A DNA stretch of 64,000 bases from a bacterium (GTDB lineage Bacteria > Bacteroidota > Ignavibacteria > SZUA-365): NCBI GenBank assembly GCA_020444325.1, contig JAHLLD010000005.1, positions 124,001-188,000 of the forward strand, given 5' to 3'. The notes beneath the pieces are model-generated. The model did no database searches, had not been told where the DNA came from, and saw only the letters and a program-made list of their open reading frames with translations. Position numbers and translations under genes: made by a program. This document shows positions 27,219 to 43,009 of the stretch, in pieces; positions within the stretch are counted from its first letter, which is position 1, and every line of letters begins with the position of its first letter.

Positions 27219-27382
27219 GAAAACGTTCTGCAAGATGTACACAGTGATCTATCGCTGATACGATACCATGTGCCAGCTTTATGGGAATGAACCACCTCAC
27301 CCTGGCAATTTCTTCCAGGTGCACATAAGCCATTGAATTGCTACCAGCTGAATTCGAGTCCGGCAGGATTGTGTGAAGTTTT

Positions 27383-27399
27383 TATGCAACTTCTGCATA
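27383..27399. repeat. Copy of the TATGCA-N5-TGCATA palindrome, upstream of the glycosidase gene
   Basis: Arms TATGCA and TGCATA flank the five-base spacer ACTTC. The motif is 49 bp before the glycosidase ATG at 27448. It matches the copies at 29854-29870 (inside the 3' part of that gene) and 49776-49898. When oriented, the spacers read GAAGT, GAAAG, GAACG, GAATG and GAAAC, so the family consensus is TATGCAGAANNTGCATA. Confidence 0.7.
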
Positions 27400-27447
27400 T
27401 TTCATGGGTTGGTATCACAACAGCCATCCCATAGTCAGCAGGATTCC

Positions 27448-30096
27448 ATGCGCAGTTTCTCCAGCTTTCGACGAGTTTCCCTCCATTCCCTCATTTCCCT
27501 CCTTGCCCTCTGCTTCGCTGCCGCTGCAGTGCACGCACAGACCTTCGTCACCGTCGACGACAGCGTACTGGTGAAGGATGTGCGACGCTTCGGTATCAAT
27601 GTCGGGTCGCGCTCGCAGTGGGGTGCGGCGCAATTCATGAAAAATCTGATCGACAATCCGGGCTTCGAGGCGGGACGATTTGCGTCCGTCGTGCTGGCTG
27701 AGGATGGGGCGTCGGTTTCGCTTTTCCCGATGGCGTTCTGGGACCCGGCGTGGAACAACGATCAGTATGGCGTCGGCTGGCCGGAGGATTTCTGGGATGG
27801 GGCCGAGTATGAAATCGTCTGGGGTGCGGCGAAGGGACGCAGCGGACAGGTGACGGATTTTTCGATCGCGGGGGGACAGAATGTGTTCACCCTCGATGGC
27901 AGCGGTGCGGCACCGGGACGGCTTGATGTGATGCTGCTTCGGGGAAAGGACATCCCGGGTTTCGGCGGGAATACCTCCGTTGCCGATGCCACCACGGTGC
28001 GGCCTGGGAGTCCGGGCCGGCAGTCCCTCCGCCTCACAAACGGCGGCTACGTCTACCGCTTTTACATGGATTCCCTCTGGCGCGACGGTGACCGCTCGGC
28101 CGGGAAGCTGCTCGTCATCAATGGCCAGTACCATTTCTCCATCTGGGCCAAGGCTGCCGCGGAAGGTGATGAACTGCGCGTGCGTTTCTTCCGCGAAGGT
28201 GAAGCGAATTTTCTCGACGAGCGCATCGCACTGACGACCGAATGGCAGCATATTGAGCGCAACTTCTTTGTGGCTGAGGGAGCGGATCCCGTCCGTGAAT
28301 ACACAGAAGAAGAATATCATCCCATCCTCGGCTTCCAGCTCGAGGCGTCCAGCAGCGGCTCCGAAGTGTGGGTCGATGATGTGGAACTGTACTCCACCGA
28401 GGATCAGAATCCCACGGTGTTCACCGACAGCTACGTCGACAGGTTGATGGAATTGCATCCGGGCATCCTGCGTTACTGGGGTGGACAGCTTGGCGCGTCG
28501 CTGGACGATCAGCTGGCTGCGCCGTTCGCGCGGCGCACGCATGGGTATTCCCCGAGAACACGTAATGCCGGATCCTGGCCGTACTCCCTGCACGAGTTTC
28601 TCGAACTGTGTGATTATGTGGATGCGGATCCGTGGTATGTGATGCCACCGACGTTTGCGCGCGAAGAGATTGAAGGACTCGTGGAATACCTTGCCGCTCC
28701 GGCAACGGCGGAATACCCGCGCGCGATGCAGCGGGCGGCGATGGGACACCCGGAGCCCTGGACGCGGCGCTTCACACGCATGCATATCGAATACGGGAAT
28801 GAACTCTGGGGCGCGGCCAGCGGTGGTGATCCTTTCATGGGCGCATCCGTCAACGGCGGCGTGCGCCTCGGCAATATCGCCAGCGACCGCTTCGACCTCC
28901 TGCGCGCTGCGCCGCATTTCGATGGGTCCACCATGACACTGGTGATCGGGGGACAGGCGGGATACGCCGGTCGTCAGCGGGAAATCGTGCAGAACAGCAG
29001 TTCCCACGACGCTGTCGCACTCGCTCCGTATTTCGGTGTGCTCGATAGCTGGTCGAGCGACGAGGAAATCTTCCTTCCCCTCTTTGCCGCGCCTATTGCT
29101 TCAGCAGCGACAGGGGGAATGCATGAAAGCCGGGGATATCTCGATGAGGGTGGCGGGACGGGAATGTCCATCTACGAAATCAACTTCCACACCACGCATG
29201 GCAACGCGCCGATCGATGTGCGCAACGATTACCTGACCGGCGCCGGCGGTGCCATTGCGCTGCCGCTGAGCATGCTCGTCTACCAGCGCGATCTCGCGGT
29301 GCGGGATCAGTGCGCCTTCTCTTCGCTGCAGTATTCCTTCCGTCTCGAGAACGGCGACATGGCGCGGCTCTGGGGAATGCTGCGCGACGTGGAAGCCACC
29401 GGTCGCAAGCGTCCCACCTGGCTTGGCGTCGAACTCGTCAACCATGCCATCAAAGGCAACGCCATGCGCACAACGCAATCAGGCGAAAATCCCACCTGGC
29501 TGCAGGAGTCCATCAACGGAGTGGGAGAGGAAACACTGGTGGAGGAGATACAGTCCTTCGCCTTCGCCGACGGAAAACAGTGGTCCCTCGTACTCTTCAA
29601 CCTCAGTCTCGACACCCCGCACCGGGTGGAATTCACCGTGCCCGGCGTTCCCAACGCCAACGCGCACTGGTATTCCATCGAGCCCGCATCCATACACGAC
29701 GATAATGAAGACAGCACCACCATCGTCATCGACAGCACGCAGCTGACGGACTTCTACAACGGTTTCTCATTCGAACTGCAGCCGCACACCATACACGTAT
29801 TCACCTGGGAAAACGAAGCCACATCCAGCGTAAGCATCCCGTTGCCCGGAGAATATGCACTTTCTGCATATTCCTCTGCTGGCAGCGTCCGCGTGCACTA
29901 CGCGCTTCCCCGTACCCAGCACATCCGCCTCGACGCCTACGACCTCCTCGGCCGCCACATCCACACCCTCGCCGACCGCGAAACCACAGCAGGACAGCAG
30001 CAGCTCACCTGGCAGCCCGGTGCGTCCGGCACGTATTTACTGGTCATGCGAAGCGCGGAGGGAATGCGGAGTGTGAGGGTGGTGAGTACACGCTAG
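27448..30096 (+). CDS. Secreted GH-A-clan glycoside hydrolase (arabinofuranosidase-like) with T9SS-like C-terminus
   Basis: The protein has 882 residues. Signal peptide ISLLALCFAAAAVHAQ. An N-terminal region (RRFGINVGSRSQW, LIDNPGFEAGRF) and a carbohydrate-binding jelly roll at about 150-330 precede a TIM-barrel domain. There HIEYGNELWG gives the acid/base Glu of clan A, and SIYEINFHTTHG a probable nucleophile Glu. The C-terminus carries a beta-sandwich and a sorting domain (IRLDAYDLLGRHIHTLADRE, GTYLLVMRS). It probably cleaves plant- or algal-type polysaccharide outside the cell. The ATG at 27448 begins the signal peptide. TATGCA palindromes lie 49 bp upstream and inside the 3' end. Confidence 0.82.
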   Translation: MRSFSSFRRVSLHSLISLLALCFAAAAVHAQTFVTVDDSVLVKDVRRFGINVGSRSQWGAAQFMKNLIDNPGFEAGRFASVVLAEDGASVSLFPMAFWDPAWNNDQYGVGWPEDFWDGAEYEIVWGAAKGRSGQVTDFSIAGGQNVFTLDGSGAAPGRLDVMLLRGKDIPGFGGNTSVADATTVRPGSPGRQSLRLTNGGYVYRFYMDSLWRDGDRSAGKLLVINGQYHFSIWAKAAAEGDELRVRFFREGEANFLDERIALTTEWQHIERNFFVAEGADPVREYTEEEYHPILGFQLEASSSGSEVWVDDVELYSTEDQNPTVFTDSYVDRLMELHPGILRYWGGQLGASLDDQLAAPFARRTHGYSPRTRNAGSWPYSLHEFLELCDYVDADPWYVMPPTFAREEIEGLVEYLAAPATAEYPRAMQRAAMGHPEPWTRRFTRMHIEYGNELWGAASGGDPFMGASVNGGVRLGNIASDRFDLLRAAPHFDGSTMTLVIGGQAGYAGRQREIVQNSSSHDAVALAPYFGVLDSWSSDEEIFLPLFAAPIASAATGGMHESRGYLDEGGGTGMSIYEINFHTTHGNAPIDVRNDYLTGAGGAIALPLSMLVYQRDLAVRDQCAFSSLQYSFRLENGDMARLWGMLRDVEATGRKRPTWLGVELVNHAIKGNAMRTTQSGENPTWLQESINGVGEETLVEEIQSFAFADGKQWSLVLFNLSLDTPHRVEFTVPGVPNANAHWYSIEPASIHDDNEDSTTIVIDSTQLTDFYNGFSFELQPHTIHVFTWENEATSSVSIPLPGEYALSAYSSAGSVRVHYALPRTQHIRLDAYDLLGRHIHTLADRETTAGQQQLTWQPGASGTYLLVMRSAEGMRSVRVVSTR
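29854..29870. repeat. Copy of the TATGCA-N5-TGCATA palindrome within coding sequence
   Basis: Arms TATGCA and TGCATA with spacer CTTTC, inside the linker before the sorting domain of the glycosidase. Its presence in coding DNA shows that the motif is not restricted to promoters. Confidence 0.65.
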
Positions 30097-30188: not shown

Positions 30189-30306
30189 CATCGTCCCCAC
30201 GCTCCGCGTGGGGACGTCTTCCTCCCGCCGCTCTGCGGCGATTAAGAAGCACAATGAACGCAGAGCGTTCGAAGCGCGCGTCCCCACGCAGAGCGTGGGG
30301 ACGATG
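30189..30306. repeat. 118-bp nested-palindrome element, copy 2
   Basis: The element starts CATCGTCCCCACG and ends CGTGGGGACGATG. The outer ~28 bp at each end are inverted repeats of each other, and each is itself a hairpin with GTCCCCACGC/GCGTGGGGAC arms and a three-base loop. Inside are a CGCCGC/GCGGCG stem with TCT loop and a GAACGC/GCGTTC stem with AGA loop. It has no ORF with a plausible start. Copies of exactly the same length lie at 35004, 40453 and 41292. Confidence 0.9.
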
Positions 30307-30340: not shown

Positions 30341-30375
30341 AAACAAAAGCACCCCGCCTCTTGGAGACGGGGTGC
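30341..30375 (-). terminator. Intrinsic terminator of the small calcium-loop protein gene (copy 1)
   Basis: On the reverse strand, a stem of GCACCCCG with complementary CGGGGTGC and a short loop (30349-30375) is followed by a T-rich run (complement of AAACAAAA at 30341-30348). It lies 24 bp after the stop of the gene at 30399-30833. A different terminator with the same layout follows the duplicate gene. Confidence 0.8.
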
Positions 30376-30398: not shown

Positions 30399-30833
30399 TT
30401 ACTTGCCCCGGCGGCCGTTGCCCTTGGGACCGGTTTCGTCACATTCGCCCGTGCCCGTTCCGGTACCTTCGCCGGCGTTTCCACCGCGCATACCGCGTTC
30501 ACCGACGTTACCCGTGCCGGAACCCGGGACGTAGTCAGGATCCTGTCCGTTGGGGATACCGTCGCCGTCGGCGTCCGGTGCGTTGTCATTGATGCCGTCA
30601 CCATCAGCGTCGACGAATCCGCGTCCGCTGATCGTGCCGGTGTAATCTTCATCGCGTCCGTTGGGGATACCGTCGCCGTCATCGTCCATGGCATTGTCAT
30701 TGTAACCGTCGCCATTGGCGTCGACGAAGCCCTTACCATCAGGCTTGCCCTGAGCGTAAGTGTCCTGCGTGTTGATGACCGTGAGCGTGAGAGCGAAAGC
30801 GAAGAGAGCTGCGAGGGAAAGAATGCGTTTCAT
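30399..30833 (-). CDS. Small secreted protein with calcium-loop (thrombospondin type 3/EF-like) repeats, copy 1
   Basis: The protein has 144 residues. Signal peptide MKRILSLAALFAFALTLTV, cleavage near YAQG. The mature part is four acidic DxDGD-type loops: FVDANGDGYNDNA, DDDGDGIPNGRDED, FVDADGDGINDNA and DADGDGIPNGQDPD, arranged as two repeats of ~40 residues. A Gly/Thr/Arg-rich tail with one Cys (GTGECDETGPKGNGRRGK) follows. Such loops bind calcium. There is no sorting domain, so it is probably released to the periplasm or exported otherwise. AGGAG lies before the ATG. The gene is nearly identical to 40648-41082; the only protein differences seen are conservative (for example T/V after YTGT). 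Confidence 0.88.
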   Translation of the reverse strand: MKRILSLAALFAFALTLTVINTQDTYAQGKPDGKGFVDANGDGYNDNAMDDDGDGIPNGRDEDYTGTISGRGFVDADGDGINDNAPDADGDGIPNGQDPDYVPGSGTGNVGERGMRGGNAGEGTGTGTGECDETGPKGNGRRGK

Positions 30834-30897
30834 GATGAACTCCTGTTGAAAATGATTCGGTGCGTATTTGCGATTCTGTCCCTAAGCAAACCACAAC

Positions 30898-30952
30898 CGT
30901 GCCAAAACCGAAAAACGCCGATTCCGGCGCATTTTCGATGATGACTCATCGG
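30898..30952 (-). promoter_or_regulatory. Upstream box of the small calcium-loop gene (copy 1), shared with the 57-aa gene
   Basis: Read on the reverse strand, a TGAGTCAT word followed by ATCG and AAATG is separated from CGGTTTTGGCACG by a CGCCG/CGGCG mini-stem and five Ts. The 57-aa gene has TGACTCATATTCGGGAATG directly joined to CGGTTTTGGCGCG (59911-59942). The stem plus T-run looks like a small terminator inserted into the shared element, perhaps blocking readthrough from the upstream FG-GAP operon. Confidence 0.55.
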
Positions 30953-31010
30953 ATGGAGTTCCATACTTGCAAGATTCGTCGAAGGGGGAGGCAAGGAATG
31001 TCGAGGGGGT

Positions 31011-31210
31011 CCCCCGCTTCGCGGGGGAAGTTGTTTCCACTCGACCCGCTACGCAGGTCTCGTGGAGTTTTTTTCTCCGCTGCGCGGAGAAGGTGTTTCT
31101 GCTTCGTCCTGCTTCGCATGACTTCGCAGAGTCATCGCGCCTTCGGCGCGCATTTGACAATCAAAACGCCCCGAAGGGGCAAGAACTCCACAAGTCCCGC
31201 GAAGCGGGAC
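31011..31210. repeat. Array of short hairpins, mostly with three-base loops
   Basis: Successive stems are CCCCCGC/GCGGGGG with loop TTC (31011-31027), CTCCGC/GCGGAG with loop TGC, GCGCC/GGCGC with loop TTC, GCCCC/GGGGC with loop GAA, and GTCCCGC/GCGGGAC with loop GAA (ending 31210). Part of it (31030-31151) is duplicated at 34863-34984. The remainder of the 488-bp gap 30834-31321 holds the promoter of the small gene and no supportable ORF. Confidence 0.8.
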
Positions 31211-31321
31211 GCGGTGGAAAAAACGGCGCAGCCAAAAACTCCGCGACCTGTCCGCCACAGTTCGAGCGAAGCGAGAACGACGGCGGAAGCGGATCGCCGC
31301 GGAAACAACGCGCCGAAGGCG

Positions 31322-33034
31322 CTACCTCACGATAATCCCGCGTCCCTCAATGCTGTCCCCATGCGCAACGCTCACATGGTAGTAGCCTGCGCGTAGTTCA
31401 GGGAATGAAATCTGAATCAACGGATCCGGCTTGCTGATTTCGATGTCCTTTCGCAGCACAGTCTGTCCAAGTACATTCCGCAAATGGATGGTCGCTGGAC
31501 CAGAACCTGAGTTCTTCAATCCGATGGTGAGTTGGCGGGTGCTGGGTGGAACGGGGTTGGGATAGATCTGGAAGGCGTCGCGCGAGGGAACGAAGGGTGT
31601 TTCCACATCCGTCAACATATCCGACGAGCCGAGATAAATCTGAAACCTGTGGTCCGCTTTGTTCTCTACTCCTCCGCCGCGCCCGAGTGTGATTACATCG
31701 TCATAGCCATCCCCATTCACATCTCCTGCATCGTGAGCGCCTGGTTCTACCCAATCTTCATCAGGTATTGTGCCGAAGTAGCCAATAGGCTCTCGCACCA
31801 GTCCCCACGGGGTCATAGGATAGAGGTAATACAATGTGCCCAAGGAGATGAAATAGGTTGCCCATCCAATCAAGATATCTCTCGTCCCGTCACCATTCAT
31901 GTCTCCGACTGGACATATCACACGAGGACGAATATCCCCTCCGAATTCAGGTCTATAGTTGGGAATGGAATCATCAGGGACGGGATGCTGCGGCAGCTGT
32001 GCTGATCCGTGAAAAACGAGGACATCACCATAGGAAGTGCGAACAGCCTGATCAATGATGTCGTCGTAGCCATCCAGATCGATATCCATGATGTGGGAGA
32101 AAAACTTACTCGGGCTCCATCCGGAATCTGCGTGTAGCGTCCGGCCGATGCCGGTAAGATCAGCATTGTTCCCGGGGTAATAATCCCAGTATTCGGCTGT
32201 CCGCTGCTCAGTTGCGTCGTAGAAACCATAACACAGAATATCATCACAACCGTTGCCATCGAGATCCCCGGTCATCATCGTATGTGCAATCGCGTGGAAG
32301 CCGATCCCACGTTTTCTCGCGTAGAACTCCAGATCAGCCTGATCGTCCAGGAGCTTGCCACCGTACAGCAGGACGAGTTTTGCTCTCGATGGAAGGGATG
32401 TGTCAAGAACCTTGAACAACAGGTCCGTATATCCATCCCCGTTGAAGTCGAGAGTCTGAATCGCGCTGCGCTGCTCATCCTCGAAATCAAAGCACCCCCA
32501 TCCGCTGGAATCCGGTCCGCGCAGCTCCATGTCAGGTTCAAAATTGAAATACGGCGGATTCGGATGGCGGAAGAACAGACGCACGCGACCCCGGTAGTCC
32601 GCATTGTAGACCTTGTCTCTCCAGCCTACGCCGGTAGCAATGTCGATTCGTCCATCTCCGTTGAAATCCCCGGACGCGAGTCCCGTGGAGCCACCGGGGA
32701 GAATGATCGCGGGGTCATGGTCCAGCGGATCCCCACCAAAGAAGATGAATGTCGTATCGAGCGACGCCGAAACAGCGAAATCGTCGTACCCATCGTCATT
32801 GATATCTCCCAGCTTGCAGAACCACCGTGCAAATCCTGGATGCTCCCCATGAACAACCTCGTCGTAGAGTTCGATTTGGTGTTTCGGGATGTCCGGCATG
32901 GCGGAAGGCGCGTACCCTGTACCTCTGTCCTGCGCGAAGGCCGCCGACCCAACGATTATCGAGAGCATGAGCAGTAGGCCTACGGCATACGCAAATTGCC
33001 TGCTGACCACTACGATGTTGAAGTTTATCTGCAT
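31322..33034 (-). CDS. T9SS-exported seven-FG-GAP-repeat propeller protein, paralogue A
   Basis: The protein has 570 residues. Signal peptide VGLLLMLSIIVGSAAFAQ. Seven DxNxDGxxD calcium loops of integrin-type FG-GAP repeats occur at about 76, 122, 195, 256, 317, 377 and 437, spaced 46-73 residues, so a seven-bladed propeller is expected. Residues 490-570 form a T9SS type A sorting domain (FQIYPNPVPPSTRQLTIGL, LRNVLGQTVLRKDIEI, LRAGYYHVSVAHG, GRGIIVR). The ATG at 33034 begins the signal peptide and lies 7 bp after the stop of paralogue B; it is the second gene of a two-gene operon. Five copies lie in the window; this one carries the DWVEPG and NKADHR variants. Likely a surface adhesin or carbohydrate- or protein-binding scaffold; substrate unknown. 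Confidence 0.9.
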   Translation of the reverse strand: MQINFNIVVVSRQFAYAVGLLLMLSIIVGSAAFAQDRGTGYAPSAMPDIPKHQIELYDEVVHGEHPGFARWFCKLGDINDDGYDDFAVSASLDTTFIFFGGDPLDHDPAIILPGGSTGLASGDFNGDGRIDIATGVGWRDKVYNADYRGRVRLFFRHPNPPYFNFEPDMELRGPDSSGWGCFDFEDEQRSAIQTLDFNGDGYTDLLFKVLDTSLPSRAKLVLLYGGKLLDDQADLEFYARKRGIGFHAIAHTMMTGDLDGNGCDDILCYGFYDATEQRTAEYWDYYPGNNADLTGIGRTLHADSGWSPSKFFSHIMDIDLDGYDDIIDQAVRTSYGDVLVFHGSAQLPQHPVPDDSIPNYRPEFGGDIRPRVICPVGDMNGDGTRDILIGWATYFISLGTLYYLYPMTPWGLVREPIGYFGTIPDEDWVEPGAHDAGDVNGDGYDDVITLGRGGGVENKADHRFQIYLGSSDMLTDVETPFVPSRDAFQIYPNPVPPSTRQLTIGLKNSGSGPATIHLRNVLGQTVLRKDIEISKPDPLIQISFPELRAGYYHVSVAHGDSIEGRGIIVR

Positions 33035-33041
33035 GCGGCCC

Positions 33042-34736
33042 TCATCGTACAATAATTCCTCTTCCCTCAATCCTGTCCCCATGCGCAACGCTCACATGGT
33101 AGTAACCTGCGCGTAGTTCAGGGAATGAAATCTGAATCAACTGATCCGGCTTGCTGATTTCGATGTCCTTTCGCAGCACAGTCTGTCCAAGTACATTCCG
33201 CAAATGGATGGTCGCTGGACCAGAACCTGAGTTCTTCAATCCGATGGTGAGTTGGCGGGTGCTGGGTGGAACGGGGTTGGGATAGATCTGGAAGGCGTCG
33301 CGCGAGGGAACGAAGGGTGTTTCCACATCCGTCAACATATCCGACGAGCCGAGATAAATCTGAAACCTGTGGTCCGCTTTGTTCTCTACTCCTCCGCCGC
33401 GCCCGAGTGTGATTACATCGTCATATCCATCCCCATTCACATCTCCTGCATCGTGAGCTCCAGGAACGACCCTGTCTTCATCGGGTATCGTACCGAAGTA
33501 GCCGATGGGCTCTCGAACCAATCCCCACGGGGTCATTGGATAGAGATAGTACAACGTGCCCAAAGATATGAAATACGTAGCCCATCCTATAAGTAGATCT
33601 CTCGTTCCGTCGCCATTCATGTCTCCTACTGGACATATCACACGAGGACGAATATCCCCTCCAAATTCCGGAGTGTAATTTGGTATGGAATCATCAGGGA
33701 CGGGATGCTGGGGCAACTGCGCCGATCCGTGAAAAACGAGGACATCACCATAGGAAGTGCGAACAGCCTGATCAATGATGTCGTCGTAGCCATCCAGATC
33801 GATATCCATGATGTGGGAGAAAAACTTACTCGGGCTCCATCCGGAATCTGCGTGTAGCGTCCGGCCGATGCCGGTAAGATCAGCATTGTTCCCGGGGTAA
33901 TAATCCCAGTATTCGGCTGTCCGCTGCTCAGTTGCGTCGTAGAAACCATAACACAGAATATCATCACAACCGTTGCCATCGAGATCCCCGGTCATCATCG
34001 TATGTGCAATCGCGTGGAAGCCGATCCCACGTTTTCTCGCGTAGAACTCCAGATCAGCCTGATCGTCCAGGAGCTTGCCACCGTACAGCAGGACGAGTTT
34101 TGCTCTCGATGGAAGGGATGTGTCAAGAACCTTGAACAACAGGTCCGTATATCCATCCCCGTTGAAGTCGAGAGTCTGAATCGCGCTGCGCTGCTCATCC
34201 TCGAAATCAAAGCACCCCCATCCGCTGGAATCCGGTCCGCGCAGCTCCATGTCAGGTTCAAAATTGAAATACGGCGGATTCGGATGGCGGAAGAACAGAC
34301 GCACGCGACCCCGGTAGTCCGCATTGTAGACCTTGTCTCTCCAGCCTACGCCGGTAGCAATGTCGATTCGTCCATCTCCGTTGAAATCCCCGGACGCGAG
34401 TCCCGTGGAGCCACCGGGGAGAATGATCGCGGGGTCATGGTCCAGCGGATCCCCACCAAAGAAGATGAATGTCGTATCGAGCGACGCCGAAACAGCGAAA
34501 TCGTCGAATCCATCATCGTTGACATCTCCCAGCTTGCAGAACCACCGCGCAAATCCCGGATGCTCCCCATGAACAACTTCGTCGTAGAGTTCGATATGGT
34601 GTTTCGGGATATCCGGCATGGCGGAAGGCGCGTACCCTGTACCTCTGTCCTGCGCAGGATTCAGCTGGGCTTGCAGCTGAGTGCACGGAATGCACAGCTG
34701 GAAAACAGCAAAAACAATCACAAAAGCAATGCGCAT
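33042..34736 (-). CDS. T9SS-exported seven-FG-GAP-repeat propeller protein, paralogue B
   Basis: The protein has 564 residues and is the first gene of the two-gene operon. Its signal peptide differs from A, C and D (MRIAFVIVFAVFQLCIPCTQ, cleavage near LQAQ) and it has LNPAQ before the common DRGTGYAPSAMPDIP. From there it is almost identical to the others, including seven FG-GAP loops and the T9SS domain. Variants are GDVNDDGFDD, NYTPEFGG, TRDLLIG, EDRVVPG and PDQLIQ. The start ATG is preceded by about 40 bp (to ~34779) identical to the upstream region of paralogue E; beyond that the two diverge. Confidence 0.9.
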   Translation of the reverse strand: MRIAFVIVFAVFQLCIPCTQLQAQLNPAQDRGTGYAPSAMPDIPKHHIELYDEVVHGEHPGFARWFCKLGDVNDDGFDDFAVSASLDTTFIFFGGDPLDHDPAIILPGGSTGLASGDFNGDGRIDIATGVGWRDKVYNADYRGRVRLFFRHPNPPYFNFEPDMELRGPDSSGWGCFDFEDEQRSAIQTLDFNGDGYTDLLFKVLDTSLPSRAKLVLLYGGKLLDDQADLEFYARKRGIGFHAIAHTMMTGDLDGNGCDDILCYGFYDATEQRTAEYWDYYPGNNADLTGIGRTLHADSGWSPSKFFSHIMDIDLDGYDDIIDQAVRTSYGDVLVFHGSAQLPQHPVPDDSIPNYTPEFGGDIRPRVICPVGDMNGDGTRDLLIGWATYFISLGTLYYLYPMTPWGLVREPIGYFGTIPDEDRVVPGAHDAGDVNGDGYDDVITLGRGGGVENKADHRFQIYLGSSDMLTDVETPFVPSRDAFQIYPNPVPPSTRQLTIGLKNSGSGPATIHLRNVLGQTVLRKDIEISKPDQLIQISFPELRAGYYHVSVAHGDRIEGRGIIVR

Positions 34737-35003
34737 GAAAACCCCGATATCATGTCGGAAGCATTGTATCAAATTTGCGGCAGCAGGTCAACCCTGCGTA
34801 CCGGAAAGACACTTGGCCGTGATGGTCTGTTCCCAACGAAAAGTCCCGCGCTTTGCGGGGGCGTTGTTTCCACTCCACCTGCTACGCAGGTCTCGCGGAG
34901 TTCTTTTCTCCGCTGCGCGGAGAAGGTGTTTCTGCTTCGTCCTGCTTCGCATGACTTCGCAGAGTCATCGCGCCTTCAGCGCGCTTGAAGAATACCGCTA
35001 CAT
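34737..35003. repeat. Spacer with a copy of the 122-bp hairpin block
   Basis: After ~40 bp shared with the upstream region of paralogue E, the spacer holds a hairpin block (34863-34984) that aligns base by base in length with 31030-31151, differing at only a few positions (for example CTCCACCTGC versus CTCGACCCGC). It includes the CTCCGC/GCGGAG and cgc-rich stems. No gene is supported here. Confidence 0.8.
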
Positions 35004-35121
35004 CATCGTCCCCACGCTCTGCGTGGGGACGTTTTCAACTCGCCGCTCTGCGGCGACTAAGAGGCACAATGAACGCAGAGCGTTCGAAGCGCGCGTCCCC
35101 ACGCAGAGCGTGGGGACGATG
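35004..35121. repeat. 118-bp nested-palindrome element, copy 3
   Basis: Same ends (CATCGTCCCCACG ... CGTGGGGACGATG), same length and same internal stems as copies 2, 4 and 5. The inner part differs slightly (TTTTCAACTCGCCGC and GATTAAGAGG variants). It separates the two FG-GAP operons. Confidence 0.9.
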
Positions 35122-35206
35122 GCGACGCTACAACGTCCCGCTTCGCGGGAGAACTCCCGCGTGAGCGCAGCGAACTCCCGCGCGTCGCGACAGCGACGCT
35201 CCCGCG
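35122..35206. repeat. Cluster of short hairpins at the end of paralogue C
   Basis: Stems include CCCGC/GCGGG with loop TTC (about 35137-35149), CTCCCGCG-containing repeats, and CGTCGC/GCGACG with loop GACA (about 35185-35200). They run directly into the stop codon of paralogue C at 35207-35209. Confidence 0.7.
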
Positions 35207-36919
35207 CTACCTCACGATTATCCCGCGTCCCTCAATCCTGTCCCCATGCGCAACGCTCACATGGTAGTAGCCTGCGCGTAGTTCAGGGAATGAAATCTGA
35301 ATCAACGGATCCGGCTTGCTGATTTCGATGTCCTTTCGCAGCACAGTTTGTCCAAGGATATTTCGCAATAGAATGGTCGCTGGACCAGAACCTGAGTCTT
35401 TCAATCCGATGGTGAGTTGGCGGGTGCTGGGTGGAACGGGGTTGGGATAGATATGGAAGGCGTCGCGCGAGGGAACGAGGGGTGTTTCCACATCCGTCAA
35501 CATATCCGACGAGCCGAGATAAATCTGGAATTTATAATTTTTATGTGATTCCACACCCCTTCCACGCCCAAGTGTAATTACATCATCATACCCATCTCCG
35601 TTTACATCCCCGGCATCATGTGCTCCAGGTACCACCCTGTCTTCATCAGGTATCGTGCCGAAGTAGCCGATTGGCTCCCGCACCAGGCCCCACGGGGTCA
35701 TTGGATAGAGATAGTATAATGTGCCAGTAGATATAAAATATGTAGCCCATCCGATGAGTAGATCTCTCGTCCCGTCACCATTCATGTCTCCAACCGGGCA
35801 TATGACACGCGGCTGAATATCACCTCCGAATTCAGGTGTATAGTTGGGAATGGAATCATTCGGCTCGGGATGCTGCGGTAAATCAGCAGTTCCGTGAAAA
35901 ACGAGGACGTCACCATATGTCTTGTGGACTGCCTGATCAATGATATCGTCGTAGCCATCCAGATCGATATCCATGATGTGGGAGAAAAACTTACTCGGGC
36001 TCCATCCGGAATCTGCGTGTAGCGTCCGGCCGATGCCGGTAAGATCAGCATTGTTCCCGGGGTAATAATCCCAGTATTCGGCTGTCCGCTGCTCAGTTGC
36101 GTCGTAGAAACCATAACACAGAATATCATCACAACCGTTGCCATCGAGATCCCCGGTCATCATCGTATGTGCAATCGCGTGGAAGCCGATCCCACGTTTT
36201 CTCGCGTAGAACTCCAGATCAGCCTGATCGTCCAGGAGCTTGCCACCGTACAGCAGGACGAGTTTTGCTCTCGATGGAAGGGATGTGTCAAGAACCTTGA
36301 ACAACAGGTCCGTATATCCATCCCCGTTGAAGTCGAGAGTCTGAATCGCGCTGCGCTGCTCATCCTCGAAATCAAAGCACCCCCATCCGCTGGAATCCGG
36401 TCCGCGCAGCTCCATGTCAGGTTCAAAATTGAAATACGGCGGATTCGGATGGCGGAAGAACAGACGCACGCGACCCCGGTAGTCCGCATTGTAGACCTTG
36501 TCTCTCCAGCCTACGCCGGTAGCAATGTCGATTCGTCCGTCTCCATTAAAATCCCCGGACGCGAGTCCTGTGGAGCCACCCGGAAGAATGATCGCGGGGT
36601 CATGGTCCAGCGGATCCCCTCCAAAGAAAATGAATGTTGTATCGAGCGACGCCGAGACAGCGAAATCGTCGTACCCATCGTCGTTGACATCGCCCAGCTT
36701 GCAGAACCACCGCGCAAATCCCGGATGCTCCCCATGAACAACCTCGTCGTAGAGTTCGATATGGTGTTTCGGGATGTCCGGCATGGCGGAAGGCGCGTAC
36801 CCTGTACCTCTGTCCTGCGCGAAGGCCGCCGACCCAACGATTATCGAGAGCATGAGCAGTAGGCCTACGGCATACGCAAATTGCCTGCTGACCACTACGA
36901 TGTTGAAGTTTATCTGCAT
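35207..36919 (-). CDS. T9SS-exported seven-FG-GAP-repeat propeller protein, paralogue C
   Basis: The protein has 570 residues and is the third and last gene of the three-gene operon. It has the same signal peptide as A and the same seven FG-GAP loops. It is the most divergent copy in blades 6-7: AVHKTYGDVLVFHGTADLPQ, PEPNDSIPNY, GDIQPRV, FISTGTLYY, EDRVVPG, GRGRGVESHKNYKFQIY, and VETPLVPSRDAFHIY. The sorting domain has LKDSGSGPATILLRNILGQ, shared only with D. It starts 7 bp after the stop of D, with the same AGGGCCG spacer as the other intra-operon junctions. The middle third is identical to the other copies. Confidence 0.9.
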   Translation of the reverse strand: MQINFNIVVVSRQFAYAVGLLLMLSIIVGSAAFAQDRGTGYAPSAMPDIPKHHIELYDEVVHGEHPGFARWFCKLGDVNDDGYDDFAVSASLDTTFIFFGGDPLDHDPAIILPGGSTGLASGDFNGDGRIDIATGVGWRDKVYNADYRGRVRLFFRHPNPPYFNFEPDMELRGPDSSGWGCFDFEDEQRSAIQTLDFNGDGYTDLLFKVLDTSLPSRAKLVLLYGGKLLDDQADLEFYARKRGIGFHAIAHTMMTGDLDGNGCDDILCYGFYDATEQRTAEYWDYYPGNNADLTGIGRTLHADSGWSPSKFFSHIMDIDLDGYDDIIDQAVHKTYGDVLVFHGTADLPQHPEPNDSIPNYTPEFGGDIQPRVICPVGDMNGDGTRDLLIGWATYFISTGTLYYLYPMTPWGLVREPIGYFGTIPDEDRVVPGAHDAGDVNGDGYDDVITLGRGRGVESHKNYKFQIYLGSSDMLTDVETPLVPSRDAFHIYPNPVPPSTRQLTIGLKDSGSGPATILLRNILGQTVLRKDIEISKPDPLIQISFPELRAGYYHVSVAHGDRIEGRGIIVR

Positions 36920-36926
36920 GCGGCCC

Positions 36927-38639
36927 TCATCGTACAATAATTCCTCTTCCCTCAATCCTGTCCCCATGCGCAACGCTCACATGGTAGTAACCTGCGCGTA
37001 GTTCAGGGAATGAAATCTGAATCAACGGATCCGGCTTGCTGATTTCGATGTCCTTTCGCAGCACAGTTTGTCCAAGGATATTTCGCAATAGAATGGTCGC
37101 TGGACCAGAACCTGAGTCTTTCAATCCGATGGTGAGTTGGCGGGTGCTGGGTGGAACGGGGTTGGGATAGATCTGGAAGGCGTCGCGCGAGGGAACGAAG
37201 GGTGTTTCCACATCCGTCAACATATCCGACGAGCCGAGATAAATCTGAAACCTGTGGTCCGCTTTGTTCTCTACTCCTCCGCCGCGCCCGAGTGTGATTA
37301 CATCGTCATAGCCATCCCCATTCACATCTCCTGCATCGTGAGCGCCTGGTTCTACCCAATCTTCATCAGGTATTGTGCCGAAGTAGCCAATAGGCTCTCG
37401 CACCAGTCCCCACGGGGTCATAGGATAGAGGTAATACAATGTGCCCAAGGAGATGAAATAGGTTGCCCATCCAATCAAGATATCTCTCGTCCCGTCACCA
37501 TTCATGTCTCCGACTGGACATATCACACGAGGACGAATATCCCCTCCGAATTCAGGTCTATAGTTGGGAATGGAATCATCAGGGACGGGATGCTGCGGCA
37601 GCTGTGCTGATCCGTGAAAAACGAGGACATCACCATAGGAAGTGCGAACAGCCTGATCAATGATGTCGTCGTAGCCATCCAGATCGATATCCATGATGTG
37701 GGAGAAAAACTTACTCGGGCTCCATCCGGAATCTGCGTGTAGCGTCCGGCCGATGCCGGTAAGATCAGCATTGTTCCCGGGGTAATAATCCCAGTATTCG
37801 GCTGTCCGCTGCTCAGTTGCGTCGTAGAAACCATAACACAGAATATCATCACAACCGTTGCCATCGAGATCCCCGGTCATCATCGTATGTGCAATCGCGT
37901 GGAAGCCGATCCCACGTTTTCTCGCGTAGAACTCCAGATCAGCCTGATCGTCCAGGAGCTTGCCACCGTACAGCAGGACGAGTTTTGCTCTCGATGGAAG
38001 GGATGTGTCAAGAACCTTGAACAACAGGTCCGTATATCCATCCCCGTTGAAGTCGAGAGTCTGAATCGCGCTGCGCTGCTCATCCTCGAAATCAAAGCAC
38101 CCCCATCCGCTGGAATCCGGTCCGCGCAGCTCCATGTCAGGTTCAAAATTGAAATACGGCGGATTCGGATGGCGGAAGAACAGACGCACGCGACCCCGGT
38201 AGTCCGCATTGTAGACCTTGTCTCTCCAGCCTACGCCGGTGGCAATGTCGATTCGTCCGTCTCCGTTGAAATCCCCGGAAGCGAGTCCTGTGGAGCCACC
38301 CGGAAGAATGATTGCGGGGTCATGGTCCAGCGGATCCCCACCGAAGAAGATGAATGTCGTATCGAGCGACGCCGAGACAGCGAAATCGTCGTATCCATCG
38401 TCATTGACATCTCCCAGCTTGCAGAACCACCGCGCAAATCCCGGATGCTCCCCATGAACAACTTCGTCGTAGAGTTCGATATGGTGTTTCGGGATATCCG
38501 GCATGGCGGAAGGCGCGTACCCTGTACCTCTGTTCTGCGCGAAAGCCGCCGACCCAACGATTATCGAGAGCATGAGCAGTCGGCCCACGGCATACGCAAA
38601 TTGCCTGTTGAGTACTACTATGTTGAAGTTTATCTGCAT
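36927..38639 (-). CDS. T9SS-exported seven-FG-GAP-repeat propeller protein, paralogue D
   Basis: The protein has 570 residues and is the second gene of the three-gene operon. It combines features of other copies: the blade 6-7 region is like A and E (TSYGDVLVFHGSAQLPQ, NYRPEFGG, EDWVEPG, NKADHR), while the sorting domain is like C (LKDSGSGPATILLRNILGQ). The signal peptide reads AVGRLLMLSIIVGSAAFAQ, a one-residue variant. It starts 7 bp after the stop of E. The mosaic suggests gene conversion. Confidence 0.9.
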   Translation of the reverse strand: MQINFNIVVLNRQFAYAVGRLLMLSIIVGSAAFAQNRGTGYAPSAMPDIPKHHIELYDEVVHGEHPGFARWFCKLGDVNDDGYDDFAVSASLDTTFIFFGGDPLDHDPAIILPGGSTGLASGDFNGDGRIDIATGVGWRDKVYNADYRGRVRLFFRHPNPPYFNFEPDMELRGPDSSGWGCFDFEDEQRSAIQTLDFNGDGYTDLLFKVLDTSLPSRAKLVLLYGGKLLDDQADLEFYARKRGIGFHAIAHTMMTGDLDGNGCDDILCYGFYDATEQRTAEYWDYYPGNNADLTGIGRTLHADSGWSPSKFFSHIMDIDLDGYDDIIDQAVRTSYGDVLVFHGSAQLPQHPVPDDSIPNYRPEFGGDIRPRVICPVGDMNGDGTRDILIGWATYFISLGTLYYLYPMTPWGLVREPIGYFGTIPDEDWVEPGAHDAGDVNGDGYDDVITLGRGGGVENKADHRFQIYLGSSDMLTDVETPFVPSRDAFQIYPNPVPPSTRQLTIGLKDSGSGPATILLRNILGQTVLRKDIEISKPDPLIQISFPELRAGYYHVSVAHGDRIEGRGIIVR

Positions 38640-38646
38640 GCGGCCC

Positions 38647-40341
38647 TCATCGTACAATAATACCTCGTCCCTCAATCCTGTCCCCATGCGCAACGCTCAC
38701 ATGGTAGTAGCCTGCGCGTAGTTCAGGGAATGAAATCTGAATCAACTGATCCGGCTTGCTGATTTCGATGTCCTTTCGCAGCACAGTCTGTCCAAGTACA
38801 TTCCGCAAATGGATGGTCGCTGGACCAGAACCTGAGTTCTTCAATCCGATGGTGAGTTGGCGGGTGCTGGGTGGAACGGGGTTGGGATAGATCTGGAAGG
38901 CGTCGCGCGAGGGAACGAAGGGTGTTTCCACATCCGTCAACATATCCGACGAGCCGAGATAAATCTGAAACCTGTGGTCCGCTTTGTTCTCTACTCCTCC
39001 GCCGCGCCCGAGTGTGATTACATCGTCATAGCCATCCCCATTCACATCTCCTGCATCGTGAGCGCCTGGTTCTACCCAATCTTCATCAGGTATTGTGCCG
39101 AAGTAGCCAATAGGCTCTCGCACCAGTCCCCACGGGGTCATAGGATAGAGGTAATACAATGTGCCCAAGGAGATGAAATAGGTTGCCCATCCAATCAAGA
39201 TATCTCTCGTCCCGTCACCATTCATGTCTCCGACTGGACATATCACACGAGGACGAATATCCCCTCCGAATTCAGGTCTATAGTTGGGAATGGAATCATC
39301 AGGGACGGGATGCTGCGGCAGCTGTGCTGATCCGTGAAAAACGAGGACATCACCATAGGAAGTGCGAACAGCCTGATCAATGATGTCGTCGTAGCCATCC
39401 AGATCGATATCCATGATGTGGGAGAAAAACTTACTCGGGCTCCATCCGGAATCTGCGTGTAGCGTCCGGCCGATGCCGGTAAGATCAGCATTGTTCCCGG
39501 GGTAATAATCCCAGTATTCGGCTGTCCGCTGCTCAGTTGCGTCGTAGAAACCATAACACAGAATATCATCACAACCGTTGCCATCGAGATCCCCGGTCAT
39601 CATCGTATGTGCAATCGCGTGGAAGCCGATCCCACGTTTTCTCGCGTAGAACTCCAGATCAGCCTGATCGTCCAGGAGCTTGCCACCGTACAGCAGGACG
39701 AGTTTTGCTCTCGATGGAAGGGATGTGTCAAGAACCTTGAACAACAGGTCCGTATATCCATCCCCGTTGAAGTCGAGAGTCTGAATCGCGCTGCGCTGCT
39801 CATCCTCGAAATCAAAGCACCCCCATCCGCTGGAATCCGGTCCGCGCAGCTCCATGTCAGGTTCAAAATTGAAATACGGCGGATTCGGATGGCGGAAGAA
39901 CAGACGCACGCGACCCCGGTAGTCCGCATTGTAGACCTTGTCTCTCCAGCCTACGCCGGTAGCAATGTCGATTCGTCCATCTCCGTTGAAATCCCCGGAC
40001 GCGAGTCCCGTGGAGCCACCGGGGAGAATGATCGCGGGGTCATGGTCCAGCGGATCCCCACCAAAGAAGATGAATGTCGTATCGAGCGACGCCGAAACAG
40101 CGAAATCGTCGAATCCATCATCGTTGACATCTCCCAGCTTGCAGAACCACCGCGCAAATCCCGGATGCTCCCCATGAACAACTTCGTCGTAGAGTTCGAT
40201 ATGGTGTTTCGGGATATCCGGCATGGCGGAAGGCGCGTACCCTGTACCTCTGTCCTGCGCAGGATTCAGCTGGGCTTGCAGCTGAGTGCACGGAATGCAC
40301 AGCTGGAAAACAGCAAAAACAATCACAAAAGCAATGCGCAT
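38647..40341 (-). CDS. T9SS-exported seven-FG-GAP-repeat propeller protein, paralogue E
   Basis: The protein has 564 residues and is the first gene of the three-gene operon. Its signal peptide is that of B (MRIAFVIVFAVFQLCIPCTQ), and N-terminal GDVNDDGFDD is as in B, but blades 6-7 match A (NYRPEFGG, TRDILIG, EDWVEPG). The sorting domain matches B (LKNSGSGPATIHLRNVLGQ, PDQLIQ). The upstream ~40 bp are identical to those of B and include TTTGATACAATGC on the coding strand, which may hold the promoter. Seven FG-GAP loops as in A. Confidence 0.9.
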   Translation of the reverse strand: MRIAFVIVFAVFQLCIPCTQLQAQLNPAQDRGTGYAPSAMPDIPKHHIELYDEVVHGEHPGFARWFCKLGDVNDDGFDDFAVSASLDTTFIFFGGDPLDHDPAIILPGGSTGLASGDFNGDGRIDIATGVGWRDKVYNADYRGRVRLFFRHPNPPYFNFEPDMELRGPDSSGWGCFDFEDEQRSAIQTLDFNGDGYTDLLFKVLDTSLPSRAKLVLLYGGKLLDDQADLEFYARKRGIGFHAIAHTMMTGDLDGNGCDDILCYGFYDATEQRTAEYWDYYPGNNADLTGIGRTLHADSGWSPSKFFSHIMDIDLDGYDDIIDQAVRTSYGDVLVFHGSAQLPQHPVPDDSIPNYRPEFGGDIRPRVICPVGDMNGDGTRDILIGWATYFISLGTLYYLYPMTPWGLVREPIGYFGTIPDEDWVEPGAHDAGDVNGDGYDDVITLGRGGGVENKADHRFQIYLGSSDMLTDVETPFVPSRDAFQIYPNPVPPSTRQLTIGLKNSGSGPATIHLRNVLGQTVLRKDIEISKPDQLIQISFPELRAGYYHVSVAHGDRIEGRGIIVR

Positions 40342-40452
40342 GAAAACCCCGATATCATGTCGGAAGCATTGTATCAAATTTGCAGATGGCTTTCAAATCA
40401 TAGTATCGGAAAGACACATGGTTGCTGTGACATGTTCCCAGTGAAAGTCACT

Positions 40453-40570
40453 CATCGTCCCCACGCTCCGCGTGGGGACGTCTTCCTCCCGCCGCTCTGC
40501 GGCGATTAAGAAGCACAATGAACGCAGAGCGTTCGAAGCGCGCGTCCCCACGCAGAGCGTGGGGACGATG
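40453..40570. repeat. 118-bp nested-palindrome element, copy 4
   Basis: Almost identical to copy 2 at 30189-30306, including the CTCCGCGTGG variant of the left hairpin and the GATTAAGAAGCACAATG core. It lies between the promoter of paralogue E and the terminator of the duplicate small gene, as copy 2 does relative to the other small gene. The remaining bases of the 306-bp gap 40342-40647 hold only that promoter and terminator. Confidence 0.9.
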
Positions 40571-40587
40571 GACAAAGACGCTCAGTA

Positions 40588-40624
40588 CCAAACGAAGACA
40601 CCCCGGAGATAACTCCGGGGTGTC
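40588..40624 (-). terminator. Intrinsic terminator of the small calcium-loop protein gene (copy 2)
   Basis: On the reverse strand, a stem of GACACCCCGGAG and its complement around a four-base loop (40597-40624) is followed by TTCGTTTGG. The stem sequence differs from that of copy 1, although the genes themselves are nearly identical. Confidence 0.7.
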
Positions 40625-40647
40625 GCGTAACCTTCAGTCCGAGCGCC

Positions 40648-41082
40648 TTACTTGCCCCGGCGGCCGTTGCCTTTGGGACCGGTTTCGTCACATTCGCCCG
40701 TGCCCGTTCCGCTACCTTCGCCGGCGTTTCCACCGCGCATACCGCGTTCACCGACGTTACCCGTGCCGGAACCAGGGACGTAGTCAGGATCCTGTCCGTT
40801 GGGGATGCCATCGCCATCGGCGTCCGGTGCATTGTCATTGATGCCGTCGCCATCAGCGTCGACGAATCCGCGTCCGCTGACCGTGCCGGTGTAATCTTCA
40901 TCGCGACCATTGGGGATGCCGTCGCCGTCATCGTCCATGGCATTGTCATTGTAGCCGTCGCCATTGGCGTCGACGAAGCCCTTGCCATCAGGTTTGCCCT
41001 GGGCGTAAGTGTCCTGCGTGTTGATGACCGTGAGCGTGAGTGCGAAAGCGAAGAGAGCTGCGAGGGAAAGAATGCGTTTCAT
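40648..41082 (-). CDS. Small secreted protein with calcium-loop repeats, copy 2
   Basis: The protein has 144 residues, nearly identical to copy 1 at 30399-30833, with the same signal peptide, four DxDGD-type loops and Gly-rich tail. Visible differences are YTGTVSGRG for YTGTISGRG and GEGSGTGTG for GEGTGTGTG, with scattered silent changes. The ~165 bp upstream are also almost unchanged to about 41247, giving a ~600-bp direct repeat that brackets the five FG-GAP genes. It is transcribed toward paralogue E but has its own terminator. Confidence 0.88.
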   Translation of the reverse strand: MKRILSLAALFAFALTLTVINTQDTYAQGKPDGKGFVDANGDGYNDNAMDDDGDGIPNGRDEDYTGTVSGRGFVDADGDGINDNAPDADGDGIPNGQDPDYVPGSGTGNVGERGMRGGNAGEGSGTGTGECDETGPKGNGRRGK

Positions 41083-41291: not shown

Positions 41292-41409
41292 CATCGTCCC
41301 CACGCTCTGCGTGGGGACGTCTTCCTCTCGCCGCTCTGCGGCGATTAAGAGGCACAATGAACGCAGAGCGTTCGAAGCGCGCGTCCCCACGCAGAGCGTG
41401 GGGACGATG
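41292..41409. repeat. 118-bp nested-palindrome element, copy 5
   Basis: Same length, ends and stems as copies 2-4; the inner region resembles copy 3 (GATTAAGAGGCACAATG). A hairpin with GCCCCCGC/GCGGGGGC arms precedes it (about 41256-41275). The 388-bp gap 41083-41470 otherwise holds the small-gene promoter and short stems, with no gene. Confidence 0.9.
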
Positions 41410-41470: not shown

Positions 41471-42838
41471 CTACGATAAGTGCTCTTCCACCGTCGCATG
41501 CAGGCGCTCCACCCAGTCTGCGTGCTCCGGCTTCATGAGGACGCTGCGAAGGACTGTGGTCCATTCGGCGTCGGCGTTGAGGTCGGGGTAGCGGGATTTG
41601 AGGAGGCCGGATTTCACGCGGAGTTTGCTGAGGTAGAGAGGGTTTTCCTTGTCTTCCATGGTGGCGGCAAAGAGGGCATCGCTGCGGTCGGAGATGGCGG
41701 TGGACGAGCGTGCGCCGTTGTCAGGGAAGAAGACGACGATGTCGAGTGAGGGTTCGAGCACGAGGGCTACGCGGTCGGAGGTGCGGATGAGTTCGCTCCA
41801 GTGCAGGGCGGCCTCGCGGCAGCGGCGAAGGACGCCACCGAGTCCGGCCCGGCTTTCCAGCGGCAGCATGCGCAGCGTCAGCCAAAGTGCGGCGGCCGAG
41901 GCACCGGCCCGCGAACACTCGAGACTGATTTCCCCGAGATGCAGATCGTCGGAAGTGAAGTAAGTGTAGGGCGAGTCGTGCACATAGTGCTTTCCCACCG
42001 AAGGATCTTTGAACAGCACGCAGCCGCAGCCGTAGGGCTGCAGTCCATGTTTGTGCGGATCCACCACGATGCTGTCGGCCTCGCCCATGGCGCCGAACAC
42101 CGCGGCGTCCACGCCGTCCGAGCCATCATCGGCGATGAGACGGAAGAAGCCTCCGTAAGCGGAATCTACGTGCACGCGGAAGCCGTGCCGCTCGCCGAGT
42201 TCGAGAATGCGGGGAAGCGGATCGAGCGCACCGAGTCCTGTCGTTCCCAGCGTCGCCACCACCGTACCGATATCCTCGGAGAGACAGAGCTGGTGCAGCG
42301 CCTCCGCATCCATGCGTCCGCTGCTGTCGGTCGGCACTTCCACACCGCGGAGTCCGAGTACCTCGCACATGCGGCTGTGCGTGTAATGCGCCTGGTCCGA
42401 GAACGCCACGGCCTTGCCGGGATGTTCGCGCCGTGCGACCCACAGCGCTTCGAGATTGGCAATGGTGCCGCTGCTGGTGAGATGACCGAGATGCTCCGCG
42501 TAGCCGAACATCCGGGCCAGGTCGGCGGTGAGTTCCTTTTCGAGCTGACCGGTGGCGGGACCCCCGTCCAGCGCATGATTGTTCGGATTGATCAGCATGG
42601 CGGCGAGATAGCCCAGCACCGCGGCTTCATGCGGCGGCTTGAGCATCTGTCCCGCATACATCGGATGAAAGAACGGGTAATTGTCCTGCAGCTTCTCCTG
42701 CAGCGCCGCAATGCCGCGCCGCAGCGCCGCAGTATCCACCGCCAGCGATGCATCCTGTCCATACGGCATCCAACGGCCGCGAAATTCCCGCTGACCACGG
42801 ACAATATCCGTCAGCAATGCTTCGAATTGTTCCAGCAT
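41471..42838 (-). CDS. Group II PLP-dependent decarboxylase
   Basis: The protein has 455 residues. Hallmarks in order: a substrate/cofactor region GHLTSSGTIANLEALWVAR, VVATLGTTGLGALDPLP, HVDSAYGGFFRL with the PLP-pyridine Asp (D225), and DSIVVDPHKHGLQPYG with the PLP lysine (K263). These are diagnostic of the aromatic-L-amino-acid/glutamate/diaminobutyrate decarboxylase fold. The substrate amino acid cannot be decided from sequence alone. The ATG at 42838 has GAGGGA upstream and was preferred to an ATG at 42931 that would add 31 unconserved residues. Cytoplasmic. Confidence 0.88.
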   Translation of the reverse strand: MLEQFEALLTDIVRGQREFRGRWMPYGQDASLAVDTAALRRGIAALQEKLQDNYPFFHPMYAGQMLKPPHEAAVLGYLAAMLINPNNHALDGGPATGQLEKELTADLARMFGYAEHLGHLTSSGTIANLEALWVARREHPGKAVAFSDQAHYTHSRMCEVLGLRGVEVPTDSSGRMDAEALHQLCLSEDIGTVVATLGTTGLGALDPLPRILELGERHGFRVHVDSAYGGFFRLIADDGSDGVDAAVFGAMGEADSIVVDPHKHGLQPYGCGCVLFKDPSVGKHYVHDSPYTYFTSDDLHLGEISLECSRAGASAAALWLTLRMLPLESRAGLGGVLRRCREAALHWSELIRTSDRVALVLEPSLDIVVFFPDNGARSSTAISDRSDALFAATMEDKENPLYLSKLRVKSGLLKSRYPDLNADAEWTTVLRSVLMKPEHADWVERLHATVEEHLS

Positions 42839-43009
42839 GTGCGTCCCTCGTCTTCTCAGTTGTTCATCACTGGGAATATAGGGATTTCCGGTAACGGACG
42901 CTGTATTCACATGCTTTTGAATCGATTTCACTCTGGCAGGACTAACATCCGCGCCACTTTCTTCCTACATTGCTATCGAACGGAACACGTTGCACTGGAC
43001 GGAGGCCGC

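Follow-up and report, generated by a model that had tools for sequence, protein, structure and literature searches.

The window (the whole stretch of 64,000 nucleotides analysed here) most probably carries a lineage-specific island, in which five paralogous secreted FG-GAP propeller genes lie between two genes that are adjacent in relatives. The array would have expanded through tandem duplication and the duplication of operons, its members being homogenised by partial gene conversion while under purifying selection, and a small calcium-loop gene would be a passenger. This reading is carried by the gene content, the two-operon layout, the lack of the block between the flanking genes of four relatives, the mosaic identity of the copies and their low dN/dS.

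Two operons between genes adjacent in relatives

Five intact FG-GAP/T9SS genes, all on the minus strand, span positions 31322-40341 and encode proteins of 564 or 570 residues. A signal peptide, seven loops of the calcium type and a predicted type IX sorting tail at the C terminus are common to all five. They are lettered A to E in transcription order, and the letters of the initial annotation run the opposite way. The three-gene operon A-B-C is composed of gene A (38647-40341), gene B (36927-38639) and gene C (35207-36919), the C-terminal half of which is the most divergent, and the two-gene operon D-E is composed of gene D (33042-34736) and gene E (31322-33034). One kind of signal peptide (leader type 1) is common to A and D, which open the operons, and another (leader type 2) is common to the genes that follow, B, C and E. 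Both the three-plus-two layout and the different signal peptide of the operon-first copies had been described in the initial annotation, and both descriptions held. The same 7-bp spacer had also been reported for all internal junctions, and the three junctions A-B (38640-38646), B-C (36920-36926) and D-E (33035-33041), on the minus strand, are letter-identical (TGA-GGGCCGC-ATG), but the spacer is GGGCCGC, the reported AGGGCCG being shifted by one base.

Candidate promoters, found as pattern matches on the minus strand, were located for the A-B-C operon (40368-40396, TTGAAA-17-TACAAT with TG before the second hexamer) and for the D-E operon (34763-34791, TTGACC-17-TACAAT). These are the two best promoter-like matches of the region and stand at equal distance from the start codons of A and D. 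The scan returned fewer sites in total than shuffled sequence did, so both candidates rest on their position and not on the number of matches.

The block is bordered on the left by a gene encoding a 907-aa protein with weak CBM_4_9 and T9SS-tail matches (27373-30096, plus strand) and on the right by a gene encoding a PLP-dependent decarboxylase (41471-42931, minus strand). In four relatives (G002, G004, G006 and G008) these two genes adjoin each other at a distance of about 150-260 bp, and the whole block of about 11 kb is absent from the interval, whereas 11.4 kb separates them in the host. Since the flanking genes are directly adjacent in the four relatives, the block is most simply explained as a gain in the host lineage, and its loss in all four is the less likely reading. 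A search of 294 genomes of the class at E<=1e-40 detected the array family in seven, all belonging to the taxonomic family of the host and scattered within it; no relative outside that family was detected among the 294 genomes at this threshold, and a scan of genome contigs gave none there above about 33% identity. A literature search on FG-GAP T9SS proteins of Ignavibacteria gave no paper.

A dispersed repeat of 118 bp, palindromic at its ends (GTCCCCACGC..GCGTGGGGAC), occurs four times in and around the array: at the left edge of the block (30189-30306), between the two operons (35004-35121), between gene A and the second copy of the small gene (40453-40570), and at the right edge (41292-41409). 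These four copies are 94-100% alike, and full-length copies elsewhere in the host genome are 80-87% alike. Many copies occur genome-wide in the host and in G002, the repeat is also present, weakly, in G004, and a further window copy lies at 340-455. The repeat may have driven the growth of the block, and recombination at its dispersed copies possibly carried in the small gene. A REP-type (Y1) transposase is one candidate maker of the repeat; the genome has one Y1_Tnp match, and the 3.2 kb around this match hold no GTCCCCACGC motif. A second intergenic repeat, hairpin-rich, about 143 bp long and 94% alike between its copies, lies ahead of D (34843-34984) and after E (31009-31151). The window contains no tRNA that could have served as an integration site and no known RNA family at the gathering threshold, and no transposase or target duplication that would explain the arrival of the block at this site was identified.

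Mosaic identity among the five copies

In a block-wise comparison of dS and dN over the 534 codons shared by A to E, dS varied from 0 to about 1 between blocks of the same gene pair. A middle core of about 575 bp (codons about 97-288 of the shared part) is identical in all five genes, one base differing in C, and in the approximately 160 codons after this core dS is 0.43 for A-D and 0.94-1.03 for C against the rest, with a dN/dS of about 0.04-0.09. Identical stretches between copies measure 575-1364 bp, and for every gene pair 5000 reshufflings of the sites that differ gave no run as long as the longest identical one. The gene ends track operon position: at the 5' end A resembles D, C resembles E at both ends, and A, B and D are alike at the stop codon. 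The copies had been called near-identical in the initial annotation, a term that masks the strong mosaicism within single gene pairs.

The identity of the core, together with a divergent adjoining stretch at low dN/dS, points to partial gene conversion under purifying selection, and we read these sequence patterns as such conversion among older paralogues. As in concerted evolution, the five genes share an identical core and their nearest other paralogue in the host genome has 45% protein identity, with exchange between the copies deduced from the mosaics. A simple recent five-fold amplification was ruled out by the dS values of up to about 1 between copies, and diversifying selection was not seen, dN/dS being below 0.1 in the divergent block.

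Mosaic patterns were also noted elsewhere. Two FG-GAP paralogues on contig C1 of G008 (L105, 980187-981698, and L051, 3488876-3490396), 2.5 Mb apart, differ by mostly 3-19% at their ends and by 24-51% in their middle, a possible case of further exchange.

Several other origins of the mosaics were weighed. Divergent segments could have been imported from outside into recent copies, but such import needs donors, and none above 45% protein identity is present in the host genome. It is improbable that the copies are cassettes of a programmed, antigen-like variation in which blades are shuffled to vary the binding face: mosaic exchange is clear, and in the distant paralogues of G008 similar and dissimilar stretches alternate, the middle being divergent, but the differences in the array are mostly synonymous at the low dN/dS of the divergent block, all five genes are intact and have their own signal peptides, and a single expression site accompanied by silent donors is lacking. 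We give equally little credence to blade exchange between secreted FG-GAP paralogues as a standing mechanism by which the binding face is varied or tuned, in the array and in the distant paralogues of relatives; if recurrent, such exchange would give a tractable case of propeller diversification. An assembly artefact, in which the copy number or the identical core was made by collapsing or chaining repeats, is only slightly less doubtful: the identical stretches exceed short-read length, but the ends of every copy are specific to its position and each has substitutions of its own, and the contig in which the block is embedded measures 350 kb, in an assembly of 25 contigs.

The small calcium-loop gene

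As the initial annotation had noted, a duplicated gene for a small secreted calcium-loop protein flanks the array. Both copies (copy 1, 30399-30833; copy 2, 40648-41082) are on the minus strand and encode 144 aa; their protein sequences agree at 99% and their aligned codons at about 96%. Each copy is followed by a strong intrinsic terminator with a 12-bp stem on the same strand, at 30349-30375 after copy 1 and at 40597-40624 after copy 2, the latter lying between copy 2 and gene A. The protein has four calcium-type loops in two repeats, gave no match to Pfam and NCBIfam at E<=1 and a weak PDB match to dockerin (E=0.2), and its model has no ordered fold (mean pLDDT 53). In an alignment of the region 30402-30833 with its relatives, the small proteins keep a Gly-rich tail, and most of those from the host genus have one Cys and a basic end (CDxTGPKGxxRRGK).

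A third host copy of the small gene, on contig C1, has priA on one side and an aldo/keto reductase gene on the other. The small gene has this neighbourhood also in G001, G002, G003, G004, G006, G009 and G011, and in G008 it is near the aldo/keto reductase gene only. Across these eight family relatives, the small gene adjoins priA in seven and is near the aldo/keto reductase gene in all eight, away from FG-GAP genes. A tandem pair of small genes occupies the priA place in G003 (L061, 12675-13806 of G003:C177). In a phylogenetic tree the window copies group with those of G002 and C1 with modest support (0.62 and 0.94), a grouping that suggests an old departure from the priA locus and a more recent origin of the second window copy.

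The initial annotation had proposed the small protein as a possible soluble partner of the FG-GAP proteins. Such a two-component surface system, with FG-GAP receptors and small soluble partners held together by selection, would be in line with both small-gene copies flanking the array in the same direction, and with the co-occurrence of the two families in 12 genomes of the taxonomic family (seven with both, two with the small gene only, three with neither and none with FG-GAP genes alone; Fisher p=0.045, uncorrected for kinship), which is too weak to carry a claim. The arrangement in relatives argues otherwise: the small gene has its own conserved place there with no FG-GAP gene adjoining, G002 and G003, which lack a full-length FG-GAP relative, retain it, and in G008 and G009 the two kinds of gene are 16-21 kb apart, the stretches between them sharing no other gene and showing no synteny. 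The separate terminators and the lack of an ordered model also speak against a partnership, and none of the six other full-length FG-GAP paralogues of the host is located where one of its three small-gene copies lies. FG-GAP and small genes are therefore scattered independently in relatives, the outcome that the initial annotation had named as refuting its reading. No conserved physical linkage was found, and the proposed conserved partner was rejected on synteny and because no interval joining the two kinds of gene is conserved, leaving a two-component system with very little probability. The small gene is instead a duplicated passenger with its own terminators, its ordinary home being beside priA and the aldo/keto reductase gene. 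Flanking copies, as those around this array, need not mean a functional pair.

Predicted propeller fold and export, and likeness to known systems

The FG-GAP family (PF01839) matched six stretches each in A (E=1.1e-20) and C (E=6.1e-23) in a Pfam search, and all seven loops of the initial annotation were located in A (Dx[NDG]x[DN]Gxx[DN], at residues 71, 117, 190, 251, 311, 372 and 432). The loops are largely kept across 21 family members, and calcium binding is predicted from them. Structure prediction of a single propeller, which had been suggested as a check, gave a model of A with a pLDDT of 80 and a pTM of 0.76, the best Foldseek match of which was to integrin alpha heads (E 4e-12); VIA-align superposed this predicted model, not a solved structure, on integrin alphaM with a Z of 24.6 over 355 residues at 4.1 A. 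The array protein is accordingly modelled as an integrin-alpha-like propeller with seven calcium loops and a T9SS tail.

Profile scores for the T9SS tail, which cover A and C, exceeded the curated cut-offs in A (PF18962, 28.1 bits against 27; TIGR04183, 25.1 against 23) and fell narrowly under both in C (22.9 and 21.1, respectively). The host genome encodes SprA (SprA_N, E=3e-50) and at least 150 T9SS tails. Each protein would be exported by Sec and then by the type IX system, and would either leave the cell or stay attached to its surface. There, the seven calcium loops would stabilise the propeller, and the propeller face may bind a partner such as a glycan, matrix or another cell. The likeliest function, judged from the modelled fold, is that of a secreted or surface calcium-stabilised adhesin or glycan binder amplified for dosage; five copies would raise the dose and perhaps tune specificity via the C-terminal blades. 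Of the amplified calcium-dependent surface binding system proposed initially, the secreted calcium-loop propeller family in two operons stands, but the layout as a system with a small partner does not. The array offers a clean natural example of a secreted propeller family growing and staying alike in a poorly studied lineage of Ignavibacteria, with the block-free arrangement kept in relatives.

The array proteins belong to known kinds, namely T9SS-tailed integrin-type propellers and a gene-converted tandem family. Integrin-type propellers that have seven blades and DxDxDG loops have been described as a group (PMC8023676, PMC3123361), and A shares with these FG-GAP/VCBS propellers (PF01839, PF13517) the seven calcium-loop motifs, the FG-GAP matches and the integrin-alpha-like model, to which the array adds the T9SS tail and its five copies. 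With type A cargo of the type IX system (TIGR04183/PF18962) it shares the signal peptide and the C-terminal sorting domain, in a host with SprA and many such tails, although copy C scores just below the cut-offs. The small protein has the loop type of Dx[DN]xDG proteins such as thrombospondin type 3 or dockerin repeats (PMC3123361), four loops in two repeats, but differs from them in lacking a Pfam or NCBIfam match and an ordered model. As in the concerted evolution described for duplicated prokaryotic genes (PMC6053082), the paralogues of the array are homogenised over part of their length; here, however, homogenisation is confined to one block, with no evidence of long duration across species.
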